The notes under the pieces: model-generated
What the model was told of the DNA's origin: nothing
What the model saw: the letters and a program-made list of their open reading frames with translations, nothing else
Databases searched by the model: none
Program-made: the position numbers and the translations under genes
Origin: Tupaia tana
Taxonomy: Eukaryota; Chordata; Mammalia; Scandentia; Tupaiidae
DNA length: 64,000 bases
Direction of reading: 5' to 3'
Assembly: GCA_026018925.1 (NCBI GenBank)
Contig: JAKSZU010000005.1
Coordinates: forward strand, 20,570,779 to 20,634,778
Shown here: piece by piece, positions 8,985 to 59,522 of the stretch
Layout: the number at the start of each line of letters is the position of its first letter
Numbering within the stretch: the stretch's first letter is position 1

Positions 8985-9426
8985 ACTTTTCCATATGAGT
9001 TTTAGGTTCAGCTTGTAAAATCTATAAAAATATCCAAAGGGACTTTTATAAGGATTATATTGAAACAGAAGGTCAATTTTGTGAGTATCATCATCTTGGC
9101 AATATTAAGTCTTCTGATTAATATTTTTGTTTAATATTTTATTAATTTTAATGAATATATTTTTATTTTTTAGTCCATCTTTAATTTCTTTCTAGAGTAT
9201 TTTGCACTTTAAGTTTAAAAATGTTACATTTTGTTAAATGTATTCCTAAAGATTTTATTCTTTTGAATGCTATTTGAAATATACTTGCATTCTTAATTTC
9301 ATTTTTGGATTACTCATTAGTAGTGCATTGCAATACAATCGATACTTATATATTGTTCCTATACCCTGCAACTTTGCTGGACTTACTCATTTGAACACAC
9401 TTTTACTGGCTTCCTCTTGGTTTTCT

Positions 9427-9648
9427 TTTTTTTTAAATTTAAATTTATTTATTTGCATTCATTCACTGTACATCATTACAGCATACAAAATGAGATTTTT
9501 CTGTCCAGAGTACACTGTATATTGTCTCAATCAAGCACATCAAATATTATTGTCAGCAAATAATTTTCCATTTCTCGTTTTCTGTATGTTTTGCTTTTTT
9601 CCCCCATCCTTGATTCCCTATCTCTTGTCCTCTGCCATCTCTCACTCT
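9427..9648 (-). mobile_element. 5'-truncated HAL1 3' end
   Basis: This matches the 3' terminal unit of the HAL1 at 16019-18376 (acagcatacaaaatgagat, 'attgtctcaatcaagcaca', 'cccccatccttgattccct'). A 14-bp perfect target duplication (cctcttggttttct) at 9413-9426 and 9649-9662 defines its limits. It is an independent, short HAL1 insertion into the old L1. Confidence 0.9.
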
Positions 9649-9877
9649 CCTCTTGGTTTTCTGTATACATCATCATATCAGAGGCAAAAAGAAATACTTG
9701 AACTTCTTTTTTAACCAATTTGGAAAATTCTTTTCTTGCTTGCTCAATTGCTCTCACCAAAACTTCCTGTTCAACTATAAGTAGATGCATTAAGAGAGAA
9801 ATCCTTGTCATATTCTGAATTTAAGAGGAAAGTAGACTTTCACTGATAAGGTAGCTTAATGAAGTTAACTGTAGGTT

Positions 9878-16002: not shown

Positions 16003-16018
16003 GACCCATTCTATCTTT
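16003..16018 (+). repeat. left target-site duplication of the chimeric HAL1
   Basis: gacccattctatcttt, identical to 18377-18392. The pair fixes both ends of the insertion as one event. Confidence 0.97.
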
Positions 16019-16039
16019 TTTTTTTTTTTTTTCCTTTTT

Positions 16040-16440
16040 TTTTCCCTTTTTTTTTTTATTTCAATTTATTTGTTTGCATTCATTCACTGAACATCATTAC
16101 AGCATACAAAATGAGATTTTCCATCCAGAGTACACTATATATTGTCTCAATCAAGCACATCAACAAACATGTTATTGTCAGCAAATGATCTTCCATTTCT
16201 TGTCTTCTGTATGTTTTGTTTTTTTTTTCCCCCATCCTTGATTCCCTATCTCTTACCCTCTGCCATCTCCCACTCTCCTCCCACACTGTCTCTGGTATCT
16301 ATGTTTGCTTTCTATACTGTTTTCTCCTCACATTTTATTGTATCACCAAAAACCATAATCAATCCAAATACCCTCATAGCAAACACAGGTGATACACACA
16401 TTTCCATGAACACAAGTCTTACTTTACGCATCCTATAAAG
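16040..16440 (-). repeat. HAL1 3' UTR, terminal unit A
   Basis: Contains 'acagcatacaaaatgagat' and 'attgtctcaatcaagcacat' read on the plus strand. The same block occurs in the HAL1 at 42.7-45.2 kb and in the fragment at 9427, where only one unit is present. Confidence 0.85.
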
Positions 16441-16499
16441 TAGCACCTAGCTGTGGCTACATATCCTACTGCAGTCATTGAATAGATATATATTTTATT

Positions 16500-16800
16500 T
16501 TCCTGAAACTTTTTTTTTTTGTAACTCAATTTACATTCCTTCCCTAAGCTTCATCACAGCATACAAAATGCAATCTCCCATCCAGTACACACTGTATAGT
16601 GACTCAATCATGCACATTACAAAAAATTTTCTATTACTAGTTCCTAGAATTACTTTTACCCCTCTTTCTGACCCTCTGTCCCTTCCCACCCTCCTCTCAC
16701 ACCACCTCCGGTGTCTACAATTGTCCTTCATTCCCTTCCCAACCACATTGCATTGATCACACAATTTCCTACATAATCTAACTACTTTCAATGGTGAGTT
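16500..16800 (-). repeat. HAL1 3' UTR, duplicated unit B
   Basis: Repeats the order of unit A ('acagcatacaaaatgcaat', 'gtgactcaatcatgcacat', 'ccctctgtcccttcccacc') at roughly 70% identity, and has its own T run of about 11 bases (16511-16521). The HAL1 at 42.7 kb lacks this unit at the corresponding place. Confidence 0.8.
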
Positions 16801-17059
16801 CACTCATTACTACTAAGAAAACCAGTTTTAACTTAACTCAAAGAAGTGCCAAGGAACTTTGCTTAAAGCCAGGAAACAAGTTAGGATTCTGTTCAAATGG
16901 TAGGTGCATGAACCTATCAGTCTCATGTTCTTTTATCTTCTGTTGTGGTTCAATTTTCCTGATTAAATTCTGGGATATAATATTCAACTCCAGACTTGTC
17001 CCTATGATTAAGTTGGCCACTTTCATAGTTTTTGGACTCTTTTTTCCATGCGTCTGTGT

Positions 17060-18061
17060 TTAATTTTCTTGATACAGCACACCCTTGAGAACTTCTTGGA
17101 GATCTGGTCTGGTGCTGGTAAATTCTTTCAGGTTTTGTTTATCTGAGAATGTTCTTGTCTTTTCTTCCCACCTGAAAGATAATCTTGCCGGGTACAGTAT
17201 TCTTGGCTGAAATTGCTTCTCTCGTAACACTTTGAATATATTTTCCCATTCTCTCCTCGCTCGCATTGTTTCCGATGAGAGATCTGCTGTTAGCCTGATG
17301 GGATATCCTTTGTAGGTAACTTGATGTTTTTCTCTTGCCAATCTTAGTATCTTGTCTTTGTCTGCGGTTTTGGTCAACCTGGCTATAATGTGTCTTGGAG
17401 AAGATCTTCTTGGGTTGATTCTATTTGGGGTCCTTTGTATTTCCTGGGACTGGATCTTCGAATGCCTCTCTAGGTTTGGAAAGTTTTCTTGCAGGATTGC
17501 ATGGAATAGATTATCAATGCCCTTATGGGTCTCTTCACCTTCTGGAATGCCAATTATACGGATATTTGGACGTTTGATGGTATCCAGTACTTCTCGAATA
17601 TCATTCTCAAATTTTTGGGCTATTTTCTCAGTCTTCGTGGTGGATTTTTCTAAGCCAGCCATTTTCTCTTCTACATCTGAGATTCTATTTTCTGAATGAT
17701 CTAGTCTGCTTTTAATACTTTCAAGGGAGATTTTGACTTCTTGTATTATAGACTTCATCTCTAGCAGTTCCGTTTGAGTCTTTCATAAAGTGTGTAATTC
17801 CTCTTTTAGATCTTGCAAGAATTTCCTCATCTCCTGGAACTCGTCAACTTCTTTCTCCTTTCTCTTTAGCAGTTCATTATCTCTCTTTTCTTCCATCTCT
17901 GTTAGCTTCGACATTATGAATGCTCTAAATTCCTTATCAGACATTTCCATGACTTTCACCGAACTGCTTGTGGGTGAAGGAGAGTTACTCTTTTCCCTTG
18001 GAGGAGAGGTATTTTCTTGTTTTCCCATATTTCTCGTGATCCGGCGGTGATTTCTTGTCAT
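17060..18061 (-). pseudogene. HAL1 ORF1 (L1 ORF1p-type RNA-binding protein), one in-frame stop
   Basis: A 333-codon frame, interrupted only by a TGA at codon 93 (position about 17785). The family product is a trimeric nucleic-acid chaperone that coats its own RNA in the cytoplasm. Seen here: a polar N-terminus, a charged coiled-coil stretch (about residues 40-140, rich in E, K and L heptads), an RRM-like block with 'RPNIRIIGIPEGE' near residue 185, and a C-terminal domain with 'HIIARLTKTADKDKILRL', 'IRLTADLS' and 'RREWENIF'. It ends '...EVLKGVLYQEN'. Two possible starts exist: the frame start at 18061, or the methionine 11 codons later (MGKQE), which matches the usual L1 ORF1 start better. 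At the stop position the 43-kb copy reads AAA, so the stop arose by mutation in this copy. No ORF2 follows. Confidence 0.92.
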
Positions 18062-18166
18062 CTGATGGATGGTGTGTTTCTTTCAAATTCTTGAAGTTAA
18101 ACCTCAATGTTCAGGAGCAAGCAGACAGAGGTGTTCTAGAATCTGTTTGCCGTTCTGTTGTGATCG

Positions 18167-18328
18167 CCGCTCCTGACCAGCAGTGTCCCAGATGAGGAAC
18201 TTGTGAAGTTCATTTCTGCAAGGCACAGTTTTGGTCATAAAAGATGCCCCAATGGTAGGGCTGATGTTGTGGTCAAAGTGATCCTGGGCAAATCGGCACA
18301 CAATGCTTGATTTCCCAACCCCGGTGTC
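18167..18328 (-). pseudogene. RAB31: RAB31 coding fragment captured in HAL1
   Basis: Sense translation gives the Rab P-loop end (DTGVGKSSIV), switch I region (PTIGASF) and the G3 motif with WDTAGQER. The residues between (CRFAQDHFDHNIS and FMTKTVPCRNELHKFL) identify RAB31 rather than RAB22A. The family is small GTPases of endosomal and Golgi traffic. About 54 codons are present, open and contiguous, with no intron. Two differences from the RAB31 protein I know are A for V after CRF and R for G before NELHK. It stops abruptly after ...QER, where HAL1 sequence begins. It is a captured mRNA piece, not a gene: no promoter, no start and no rest of the GTPase. Confidence 0.88.
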
Positions 18329-18376
18329 AATTATTCAACCGTGTTCATCATCTTCTATAGAGGCTCAAGTTAAAAT

Positions 18377-18392
18377 GACCCATTCTATCTTT
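18377..18392 (+). repeat. right target-site duplication of the chimeric HAL1
   Basis: gacccattctatcttt, the partner of 16003-16018. On the minus strand the nick lies at ct/aaag, a loose match to the L1 endonuclease preference tt/aaaa. Confidence 0.97.
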
Positions 18393-22857: not shown

Positions 22858-22874
22858 AAAAGCTTTCTTCTTTG

Positions 22875-23143
22875 GGGACAAGCAGTTAGCGTAATGGCTA
22901 TGTTGCTGGACTCCCATGTAGTCGACCGTGGTTTGAGTCCCGGACCCGGTGGCTTAAAACTCATGCCGGGCGCGCGTGTGTGCATGCCCAAGATCCCAAG
23001 AGGAGAATGGAGGAGAAGGGATTGTGGCATGGCCATCCCCCCTGGGGGGTGATTTCTCACTTTCTGTCTCTCTGTCTCTCTCTCTGTCTGGCGAGCGCAC
23101 ACGCCCTATAGCAAAAAAACTCTCAAAAAAAAGAAGAAAAAAA
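22875..23143 (+). mobile_element. SINE-L copy, young
   Basis: Complete, with target duplication aaaagctttcttctttg (22858-22874) and aaaagctttcctctttg (23144-23160), one mismatch. Head B box reads 'ggtttgagtcc'. Confidence 0.95.
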
Positions 23144-23351
23144 AAAAGCTTTCCTCTTTGATTTCTAAGACTTGCTGTCCAGTATTTTCACAGAAAGTTT
23201 GTAAATTGGTCTGAAATTTTATTTTTGTACTGTATTCTTGTTTCTCAGGAGCTTCTAGTTAATATTTTATTGCATATTATATGTCTTTGTGTGTAGGTGT
23301 GTGAAATCAAACGTGTAGTGTCTCAATAAAATGATCTTTTCATGTGATATA

Positions 23352-28312: not shown

Positions 28313-28324
28313 TAGGGTGCCTTT
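28313..28324 (+). repeat. second copy of triplicated SINE target
   Basis: tagggtgccttt, right duplication of the SINE-S and left duplication of the next SINE-L. Confidence 0.95.
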
Positions 28325-28587
28325 ATTTATTTTTTTTTTGAGAGGTTTTTGCTATAGGGCGCGCGTGCGCTCGCCAGACAGAGAGAGACAGAGAGATAGG
28401 AAGCGAGAAATCACCCCCCGGGGGGATGGCCACGCCGCAATCCCTTCTCCTCCATTCTCCTCTCGGGATCTTGGGCACGCACTTACACATGCCCAGCGTG
28501 AGTTTAAGTCACCGGGTCCGGGACTCAAACCTCCGGCGACTACGTGGGAGTCCAGCGACATAGCCATTAGGCTAATTACTGGTCCCG
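28325..28587 (-). mobile_element. SINE-L copy, young, inserted into the same target
   Basis: Complete copy with many CpGs. Its own duplications are 28313-28324 and 28588-28599, so it hit the target copy made by the earlier SINE-S. Confidence 0.95.
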
Positions 28588-43003: not shown

Positions 43004-43318
43004 TGCTGTGTGGTTTTCATTTATTTTTTAGAAGAAATAATTTTTTTTTTGTTTTTCCTATTTCTCCTTTTTTTCTCTCTTTCTCTGTATTCTTATCCTT
43101 TTTATTTTACCTCATCACTTTGCTGCTCAGCCTCCATGCGCTGAGTGTCTAGACAGGTTTAAGTGAAATGTTTGTGGCCAAGCATCTGAATACTATTAGG
43201 GTAACATATTCCTCAATTACCACTGAATGTGTGACACAAAGGGAGAAAAATGAAACAGTAAAGAGTTTGCAGGCCACCTCCTGCTGCATGCCTCAGAACA
43301 CTCAGATTGAACTTCTAG

Positions 43319-44326
43319 AAATTAGGAAGAAACAAATAACCCATCAGATAACTAGAAATCACCACAGAGGTACAAGAAATATGAGAAACCAAGAAAATAT
43401 CTCTCCCCTAAAGGGAAAGAATAACTCCTCTTCATCCACAGACAGTACAATGGAAATGTCTGATAAAGAATTTAGAATATTCATAGTGACACAGCCAACA
43501 GAGATAGAAGAGAAGAGAGACAATAAACTCCAAAAGAAAAGAGCTGACAAGTTCCAGGAGGTGAGGAAGTTCTTACAAGAGCTGAAAGAGGAAATATACA
43601 CCATAAAAAATAATCAAATGGAAGTGTTGGAGATGACTATAACACAGGAAGTCAAAACCTCCCTTGAAAGTATTAAAAGCAGACTAGATCATATAAAAAC
43701 TTGAAACTCAGATGTAGAAGACAGAATTGCTGGACTAGTAAAATCCATCACGAAGACTAAGAAAATAGTCCCCCCAAATGAGAATAACATATGAGAAATA
43801 CTAGATACCACTAAACATCCAAACATCCGGATAATCGGTATCCCAGAAAGTGAAGAGACTAATATGGGCATTGATAATCTATTCCATGAAATCCCGGAGG
43901 AAATCTTTCCAAAGCTAGAGAGGCATTCAAAGTTTCAGACCCAAGAAATACATAGGACCCCAAATAAGATCAACCTAAGAAGATCTTCTCCAAGACACAT
44001 TATAGCCAGATTGACCAAAACCACAGACAAAGACAAGATACTATGATTAACAAGAGAGAAATATCCAGTTACCTACAAAGGATATCCCATCAGGCTAACA
44101 GCGGACCTCTCATAGGAAACAATGCAAGCAAGGAAAGAATGGGAAAATATACTCAGTGTTGAGTGAAAAGCAATTTCAACTAAGAATACTATATCTGGCA
44201 AGATTATCCTTCATATGGGAAGAGAAGACAAGAACATTCTCATAAAAACAAAACTTGAAAGAATTTACTGACACCAGACCTGTTCTCCATGAAATTCTGA
44301 AGGGAGTGCTATATCAGGAAAACTAA
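43319..44326 (+). pseudogene. HAL1 ORF1 remnant (copy 2)
   Basis: Same protein family as the frame at 17060-18061 and alignable end to end. The first methionine position (atg in copy 1) reads ata here. An upstream atg at 43168 happens to be in frame. In-frame stops occur at 43702 and again within about 43791, 44043 and 44113, mostly at sites that read CGA or other sense codons in copy 1. Domain order is unchanged: polar N-terminus, coiled coil, RRM block (HPNIRIIGIP-type), then the C-terminal domain. It ends in taa at 44324-44326. Confidence 0.88.
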
Positions 44327-44998
44327 AGTCAGACACAGAAATAAGAGTTCAAAAACAGTTAAGAAAATGGCCAGCTTAATGATAGGGACAAATCTAGAGT
44401 TGAACGTTATTTTCCAGAATTCACATGGAAAGATTGGACCACAACAGAAGATAAAGTAAATGAGTCTGAACTGGTGAAATAGAATTTTATGACTTGTGAC
44501 TAAAACATTACTTCTTCTATGGTTTGCTTTCTAGAGTTAAAGATTTTTGTCTTTCTTGAGTTGTAGAAAAGTCCACGTACTTACTATTCTAACAGAATCC
44601 TGACCCGTTTTCTGACTTTAAGTCTTAAGCAAAATTCTCTTAACATTTTTTGGTTTTGATTTATTTAAACTAAAACTGACTTTCTTGAAATTAAAAAATA
44701 TATTTAAAAAATACCTATTTAATGACCACAGTAAGCTATATAGCCTCAGCTTGGTGCTACTTTATAGTAAATTCATTCTACCCACAGAGTTTCATGCCTA
44801 AAGTCAATATGTGTTAACAAATATGTAAATATCACCTGAACTCGCTATTGAAAGGATTTAGATTAAGATATTTTGTGAATCAATGAAATAGGGCGAAAAT
44901 AAAAAAGGAATGGAAAGCAACTGCCTATATCAGAGACAGTGTAGGAAGAGGGTGGGAAATGGCAGAGAGTGAGAAAAAGGGAAAAAAATATATAAAAT

Positions 44999-45027
44999 AT
45001 ATATATATATATATGTATATATATTTC

Positions 45028-45078
<51 letters not shown>

Positions 45079-45084
45079 AATAAG
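44999..45084. repeat. (TA)n tract with inverted flanks
   Basis: Lies inside the HAL1 3' UTR. 'tatttctttttatatat' at about 45022 and 'atatataaaagaaata' at about 45067 are imperfect inverted repeats (one base of difference) around the TA core. Confidence 0.85.
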
Positions 45085-45235
45085 ACATGGAAAATTATTT
45101 GTTAATGATAGCAAGTATCATTAAGCCACTTTACAGTGTATTCTGGATGGAAAATCGCATTTTGTATACTGTGATGATATTCAGTGAAAGAATGTAAAAT
45201 AAATTAATTAAAAAAAAGAAAAGAGAAAAAAAACA

Positions 45236-59037: not shown

Positions 59038-59232
59038 ATGCCACTTATAATTAGACAGAGGCAAACTAAAGCAATGGGGTACTGTTTCATTCAGCACATA
59101 TCCAAAATAAACAAACATGGGTATGGAAGAACAGAGTATAAGACATTGTTTCTCTGTGACACCATATTTTGGCATGACATCATTAGAGGGTCATTTGGAT
59201 ATATTAATAAAATTTTAAAAAGTGCAAATCCG

Positions 59233-59506
59233 GGGAACCAGCAGTTAGCGTAATGGCTATGTCGCTGGACTCCCACGTAGTCGACCGCGGTTCGCGTCTC
59301 GGACCCGGTGGCTTACAACTCACGCCGGGCGCGTGTGCGTGTGTGCCCAAGATCCCGAGAGGAGAATGGAGGAGAAGGGATTGCGGCGTGACCATCCCCC
59401 CTGGGGGGTGATTTCTCGCTTTCTGTCTCTATGTCTCTCTCTGTCTGTCTGGCAAGCACACGCGCCCTATAGCAAAAAACCTCTCCAAAAAAAAAAAAAA
59501 AAAAAA
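59233..59506 (+). mobile_element. SINE-L copy, young
   Basis: Perfect 16-bp duplication aaaaagtgcaaatccg (59217-59232 and 59507-59522, counting the A run). Intact A box tagcgtaatgg and a near-perfect B box, dense CpGs, long A tail. Among the youngest copies in the window. Confidence 0.97.
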
Positions 59507-59522
59507 AAAAAGTGCAAATCCG

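Follow-up and report, generated by a model that had tools for sequence, protein, structure and literature searches.

A HAL1 retrotransposon in Tupaia tana fused to what look like RAB31 exons 2 and 3, probably by way of a spliced chimeric RNA

The element described here lies in a 64,000-nucleotide stretch of Tupaia tana DNA (the window), where it occupies positions 18376-16019 as a single minus-strand insertion flanked by perfect 16-bp target site duplications. The duplicated sequence, GACCCATTCTATCTTT, is found at 16003-16018 and at 18377-18392, with no other match on the plus strand and none on the minus strand of the whole window. With respect to the minus-strand element, the copy at 18377-18392 is the 5′ duplication (AAAGATAGAATGGGTC in the sense direction) and the copy at 16003-16018 is the 3′ duplication. 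This 16-bp match is also the longest run shared at its spacing in the window, the runner-up reaching 11. Read along the minus strand, the insertion consists of a 48-nt leader (18329-18376), 162 nt of RAB31 sequence, a 12-nt segment at the joint (18155-18166), a HAL1 5′ part with ORF1 (17060-18154), a 3′ UTR of about 1 kb (16059-17059) and an A-rich tail with short G interruptions (16019-16058). The nicked strand at the insertion site reads CTTT/AG, which is close to the L1 endonuclease consensus of TTTT/AA, and this endonuclease-like site, together with the perfect duplication and the A-rich tail, identifies the event as LINE-1-mediated. Specifically, because all parts share one orientation, one perfect duplication and one A tail, the leader, the RAB31 piece and HAL1 arrived together through target-primed reverse transcription. 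The proposal that RAB31 came to lie next to HAL1 through two independent insertions, or through a misassembly, has nothing positive in its favour and deserves almost no credence, given that a single perfect duplication surrounds both and that no second duplication or A tail lies between them. The first-pass annotation had likewise described one insertion, bounded by perfect 16-bp duplications and with RAB31 and HAL1 co-oriented inside one retrotransposition event, and all of its coordinates proved correct; the leader and the 12-nt joint segment were absent from it.

The HAL1 portion has an ORF1 whose first Met lies at 18061 or 18028 and whose stop lies at 17062-17060, the frame being interrupted by one TGA (17785-17783). 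Two domains of its product scored above their cut-offs, one L1 RBD-like (PF02994, 7.7e-33) and one dsRBD-like (PF17490, 6.9e-23). No ORF2 is present between ORF1 and the 3′ end, and the 3′ UTR follows ORF1 directly; the initial identification of this part as a HAL1 with ORF1 and a 3′ UTR therefore holds. A 296-residue ORF1 protein (P0121) shows 12 differences from that of the chimera, the stop included, which places the HAL1 of the chimera in a fairly young lineage. Its database entry assigns it to Streptomyces narbonensis (contig of 2304 bp), and we infer that it represents mammalian DNA contaminating a bacterial assembly; a search with it against public viral contigs gave no match.

A second, older copy without ORF2, here termed HAL1_B, is located on the plus strand at approximately 43254-45230. 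It is 81% identical to the HAL1 of the chimera over 1246 columns, with homology beginning at 43254 in HAL1_B and 18154 in the chimera, and a similar 3′ end follows its ORF1, such that the absence of ORF2 is common to the two copies, the only two compared. A clear target site duplication was not found around HAL1_B, the candidates being an 8-bp exact match and a 15-column gapped one. The open ORF1 frame of HAL1_B (183 codons, 43153-43704, plus strand) reaches about 100 nt upstream of the point where the copy becomes homologous to the chimera, an observation that could be fortuitous or could point to an older 5′ extension of the element. In the 3′ UTR of the chimera the 3′-end module occurs twice, once internally, the copies at 16073-16173 and 16530-16630 (minus strand) being 74-77% identical and the inner one carrying its own A11 run. 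This inner stretch is absent in HAL1_B, and no clear target site duplication was seen by eye around the inner module, which looks either like a feature of the subfamily or like an older 5′-truncated L1/HAL1 insertion that the element has carried along.

Other repeats are also present in the window. A short 5′-truncated insertion of the HAL1 3′ end (9413-9662; 88% identity over 251 columns) is bounded by a perfect 14-bp target site duplication, CCTCTTGGTTTTCT, at 9413-9426 and 9649-9662. A SINE of about 280 bp that starts with GGACCAGCAGTTAGCGTAATGGCTATGTCGCTGGACTCCCACGTAGTCGACCG occurs in tens of copies, with BLAST depth up to 38 (for example 59232-59511, 22871-23148 and 28322-28586); its promoter region appears tRNA-like by eye, and ARAGORN called no tRNA. 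Presumed SINE patterns of several mammals matched nothing in the window apart from short B1-pattern hits within the local repeat. A search of the window against Rfam returned nothing at the gathering threshold.

With respect to the RAB31 piece, the 54 residues encoded at 18328-18167 (minus strand) match human Rab-31 (PDB 2FG5, E 2e-32) at 52 positions, the two differences being V to A and G to R, and Rab-22A is the second-best match, behind Rab-31. The 162 bases are thus RAB31 coding sequence, as originally proposed. Searches of the piece against public viral contigs returned one locus at 55% identity, and those against public genome contigs returned 43 loci, the best rows of which (52-54%) are MAG records and not relevant RAB31 relatives. 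The RAB31 frame is the same as that of ORF1; however, two stops lie between them (18106-18104 and 18085-18083), and a RAB31-ORF1 fusion protein was rejected as a candidate. With these two stops and the one within ORF1, this copy of the chimera looks inert.

Judged from the ORFs of other vertebrates, the piece looks like exactly exon 2 plus exon 3 of RAB31. Exon 2 (80 nt, 18249-18328, minus strand) would start with the codon for the D of DTGVGKSS and stop after the second base of the PTIG Gly codon, and exon 3 (82 nt, 18167-18248, minus strand) would end after DTAGQER. The border evidence comes from unannotated ORFs that cross exon/intron borders in other vertebrates, and was gathered by examining the best 120 of 145 matches in a protein search. 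At least 44 proteins among the 120 matches listed contain exon 2 or exon 3 with four or fewer substitutions. In 16 unnamed contig ORFs among these 44, several of which look closely related and which therefore represent fewer than 16 independent cases, the sequence before ASFMTKTV is not that of RAB31 (P0037, P0040, P0045, P0048, P0051, P0052, P0053, P0055, P0062, P0071, P0078, P0080, P0087, P0090, P0106 and P0118). Directly after DTAGQER, 14 of these 16 ORFs read V-S and two read V-R, which implies a GT donor, while the residue before ASF is R in 13 and S in three, which implies an AG/N acceptor. A shorter ORF, P0117, likewise reads QERVS, whereas the named carp protein P0099 has R before ASF but E-S after DTAGQER. 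The 3′ edge of the RAB31 piece thus falls on an exon donor as seen in the ORFs of other vertebrates, and exon 2 probably ends in phase 2, to judge from the R or S before ASF and the W, F or L after PTIG.

At the 5′ edge, the unnamed contig ORF P0076 reads YVRVQ/DTGVG at the start of exon 2 and PTIG/WDHS at its end. Three named proteins (P0004, P0007 and P0107) have the D of exon 2 as their first residue, and in four further matches (P0002, P0003, P0008 and P0009) that D is preceded by upstream sequence that is shortened or different. An exon start at this position is thus indicated by one contig ORF and by named partial proteins, and the acceptor of intron 1 by that one contig ORF. Two cases are contrary: P0039, from an unnamed 2945-bp contig, in which no intron separates exons 1 and 2, and the named tilapia protein P0012, whose divergence begins a few residues into exon 2 and not at the D.

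Both edges of the RAB31 piece are sharp in the chimera itself: the GAC is preceded by ATT, where RAB31 has a Gly codon, and DTAGQER is followed by CGA, where it has a Phe codon. The abrupt end after DTAGQER that had been noted at the outset is therefore real (the Phe is seen in P0010). Intron 2 is absent, its borders again being judged from other vertebrates, and the earlier view that the RAB31 part is intron-free and derives from spliced RNA is upheld. An intron-free sequence could also come from a RAB31 retrocopy that lay upstream of a HAL1 elsewhere, was transcribed together with it and was moved as an ordinary 5′ transduction. Such a retrocopy is a very improbable source, as the chimera has two exons only, with both edges exactly on exon borders, and it has no RAB31 3′ end and no separate A tract between RAB31 and HAL1. 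In the same way, the chimera shares intron-free RAB31 sequence with a RAB31 processed pseudogene and differs from it in having two exons only, in lacking the RAB31 3′ end and in its fusion to HAL1.

We propose that the insertion is the DNA copy of a single chimeric, spliced and polyadenylated RNA made up of the leader, RAB31 exons 2 and 3, and HAL1, and we put the probability of this origin at roughly 0.8. Such an RNA would begin at an alternative first exon, the end of which would be represented by the leader (48 nt or more). RAB31 intron 2 would then be removed to join exons 2 and 3, and the exon 3 donor would be joined to an acceptor located either right at the HAL1 5′ end or a few bases before it. 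The most likely arrangement would be cis-splicing to a HAL1 that lay in sense within intron 3 of RAB31, and trans-splicing would be possible. As HAL1 has no ORF2, the chimeric RNA would have been copied by L1 ORF2p acting in trans.

The first-pass annotation had instead proposed that reverse transcription switched templates, from HAL1 RNA to RAB31 mRNA, a proposal that is probably wrong, as both RAB31 edges lie on exon borders when these are judged from other vertebrates. In the full form of that model, the L1 enzyme jumped from HAL1 RNA to a mature RAB31 mRNA and then to a third RNA, the source of the leader. Template switching is documented for chimeras of the U6-L1 type (PMC13174262), and it could account for the leader and the 12 joint bases as a further jump or as untemplated bases. 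It nonetheless leaves both exon-border edges to chance; by rough arithmetic (three borders within the first 201 coding bases), a pair of randomly placed edges would coincide with borders in about one case in 5,000. A foreign-RNA edge unrelated to exon borders is seen at neither end of the RAB31 piece, and splicing, which predicts edges on exon borders, is preferred for that reason; we regard template switching as unlikely. A circular RNA of exons 2 and 3 was also considered as a template and, by reasoning, is not favoured, since the reverse transcriptase would need to begin and finish precisely at the back-splice.

The last bases of the leader, AATAATT, make a poor splice-donor context relative to the donor consensus, and the joint between the leader and exon 2 is accordingly less well explained by splicing. 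The leader has stops in all three frames and does not encode the known N-terminus of RAB31, on which grounds we rejected it as RAB31 exon 1. Comparison of the leader with the rest of the window gave no match above controls (scores of 22 and 20, against 21-31 in 20 shuffles). The 12 nt at the HAL1 joint are candidates for a diverged HAL1 5′ end or for intron or target-site flank of the source HAL1, and 5 of the 12 are identical to HAL1_B. An AG at 43240-43241 of HAL1_B lies level with the joint by ungapped extrapolation over these 12 nt, in a region where AG makes up 7-8% of dinucleotides, and the pyrimidine tract beside it is weak. In the human RAP1GDS1-L1PA2 insertions, which involve an intronic L1, the donor was joined to a cryptic acceptor located 15 bp 5′ of that element (PMC13174262), and by analogy such an arrangement would fit the 12 nt seen here.

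Within the splicing model, a trans-splicing version would join the exon 3 donor of a RAB31 pre-mRNA to an acceptor in an independent HAL1 transcript, and the RAB31 gene itself would contain no HAL1. Law and Burns favour trans-splicing in most of their cases, 15 of the 17 genes being without an intronic L1 (PMC13174262). For the chimera we consider this version possible but tentative, as it requires an acceptor within HAL1, and the matching place in HAL1_B offers just the weak AG.

A further reading is that a HAL1 subfamily uses the leader and RAB31 exons 2-3 as its functional 5′ end and copies itself with them, having borrowed an alternative RAB31 promoter. We consider this doubtful. It would entail several genomic copies that share this joint but sit within different target duplications, and the copy number of the chimera in the window is one. 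Should copies of the chimera exist, they would represent a non-autonomous element taking a host promoter.

In terms of precedent, a gene/element chimera made by splicing is a known kind of event, and the HAL1 partner is what makes this one unusual. The initial remark that no described case is known does not stand for the kind of event, as 17 mRNA/lncRNA-LINE-1 chimeras have been reported in hg38 (PMC13174262). As for the partner, no HAL1 fused to gene exons appeared among the papers listed in searches of the open-licence PMC literature. The chimera would extend splicing-made gene/retroelement fusions, known for L1 and SVA of great apes, to the ORF1-only HAL1 of another mammal, and from the known first exon to internal coding exons. 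Exon-exact edges also provide a readable test of splicing against template switching, even without the gene of the species itself.

HAL1 (half-L1) encodes ORF1p only (PMC5753468), and the two copies here likewise lack ORF2; the chimera differs from HAL1 in its leader and the RAB31 exons at its 5′ end. With U6-L1 template-switch chimeras it shares a foreign RNA 5′ of an L1-type element inside one target site duplication, although the edges in U6-L1 chimeras are not splice-exact (PMC13174262), unlike those of the RAB31 piece. A likeness of kind is also seen with the 17 hg38 chimeras of Law and Burns (2026), whose genes include MAP3K13, FHIT, PALLD, CREM and RAP1GDS1; six of the 17 have exons that end precisely at splice donors (PMC13174262). 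For MAP3K13, those authors disfavour template switching owing to the splice junction (PMC13174262). These human cases share with ours sense gene exons 5′ of an L1-type element, the whole being bounded by a target site duplication, with an endonuclease motif and an A tail (PMC13174262). Their partner, however, is a near full-length L1 (PMC13174262) in place of an ORF1-only HAL1, and the present chimera lacks the known first exon, having what look like exons 2 and 3 plus a 48-nt leader that has no match in the window.

Among elements that gained a gene exon, Damert (2018) describes SVA_F1, with MAST2 exon 1, and the chimpanzee pt_SVA_D6, with STK40 exon 1 (PMC6139936), which are represented by 84 and 94 copies, respectively (PMC6139936). 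Like HAL1, these are non-autonomous, L1-dependent elements, and they acquired a 5′ gene exon via splicing (PMC6139936). The four unexplained bases (CATG) at the pt_SVA_D6 joint may be compared with the 12 nt of the chimera (PMC6139936). The exons captured by SVA_F1 and pt_SVA_D6 are single GC-rich first exons (PMC6139936), whereas the chimera has what look like two internal coding exons.
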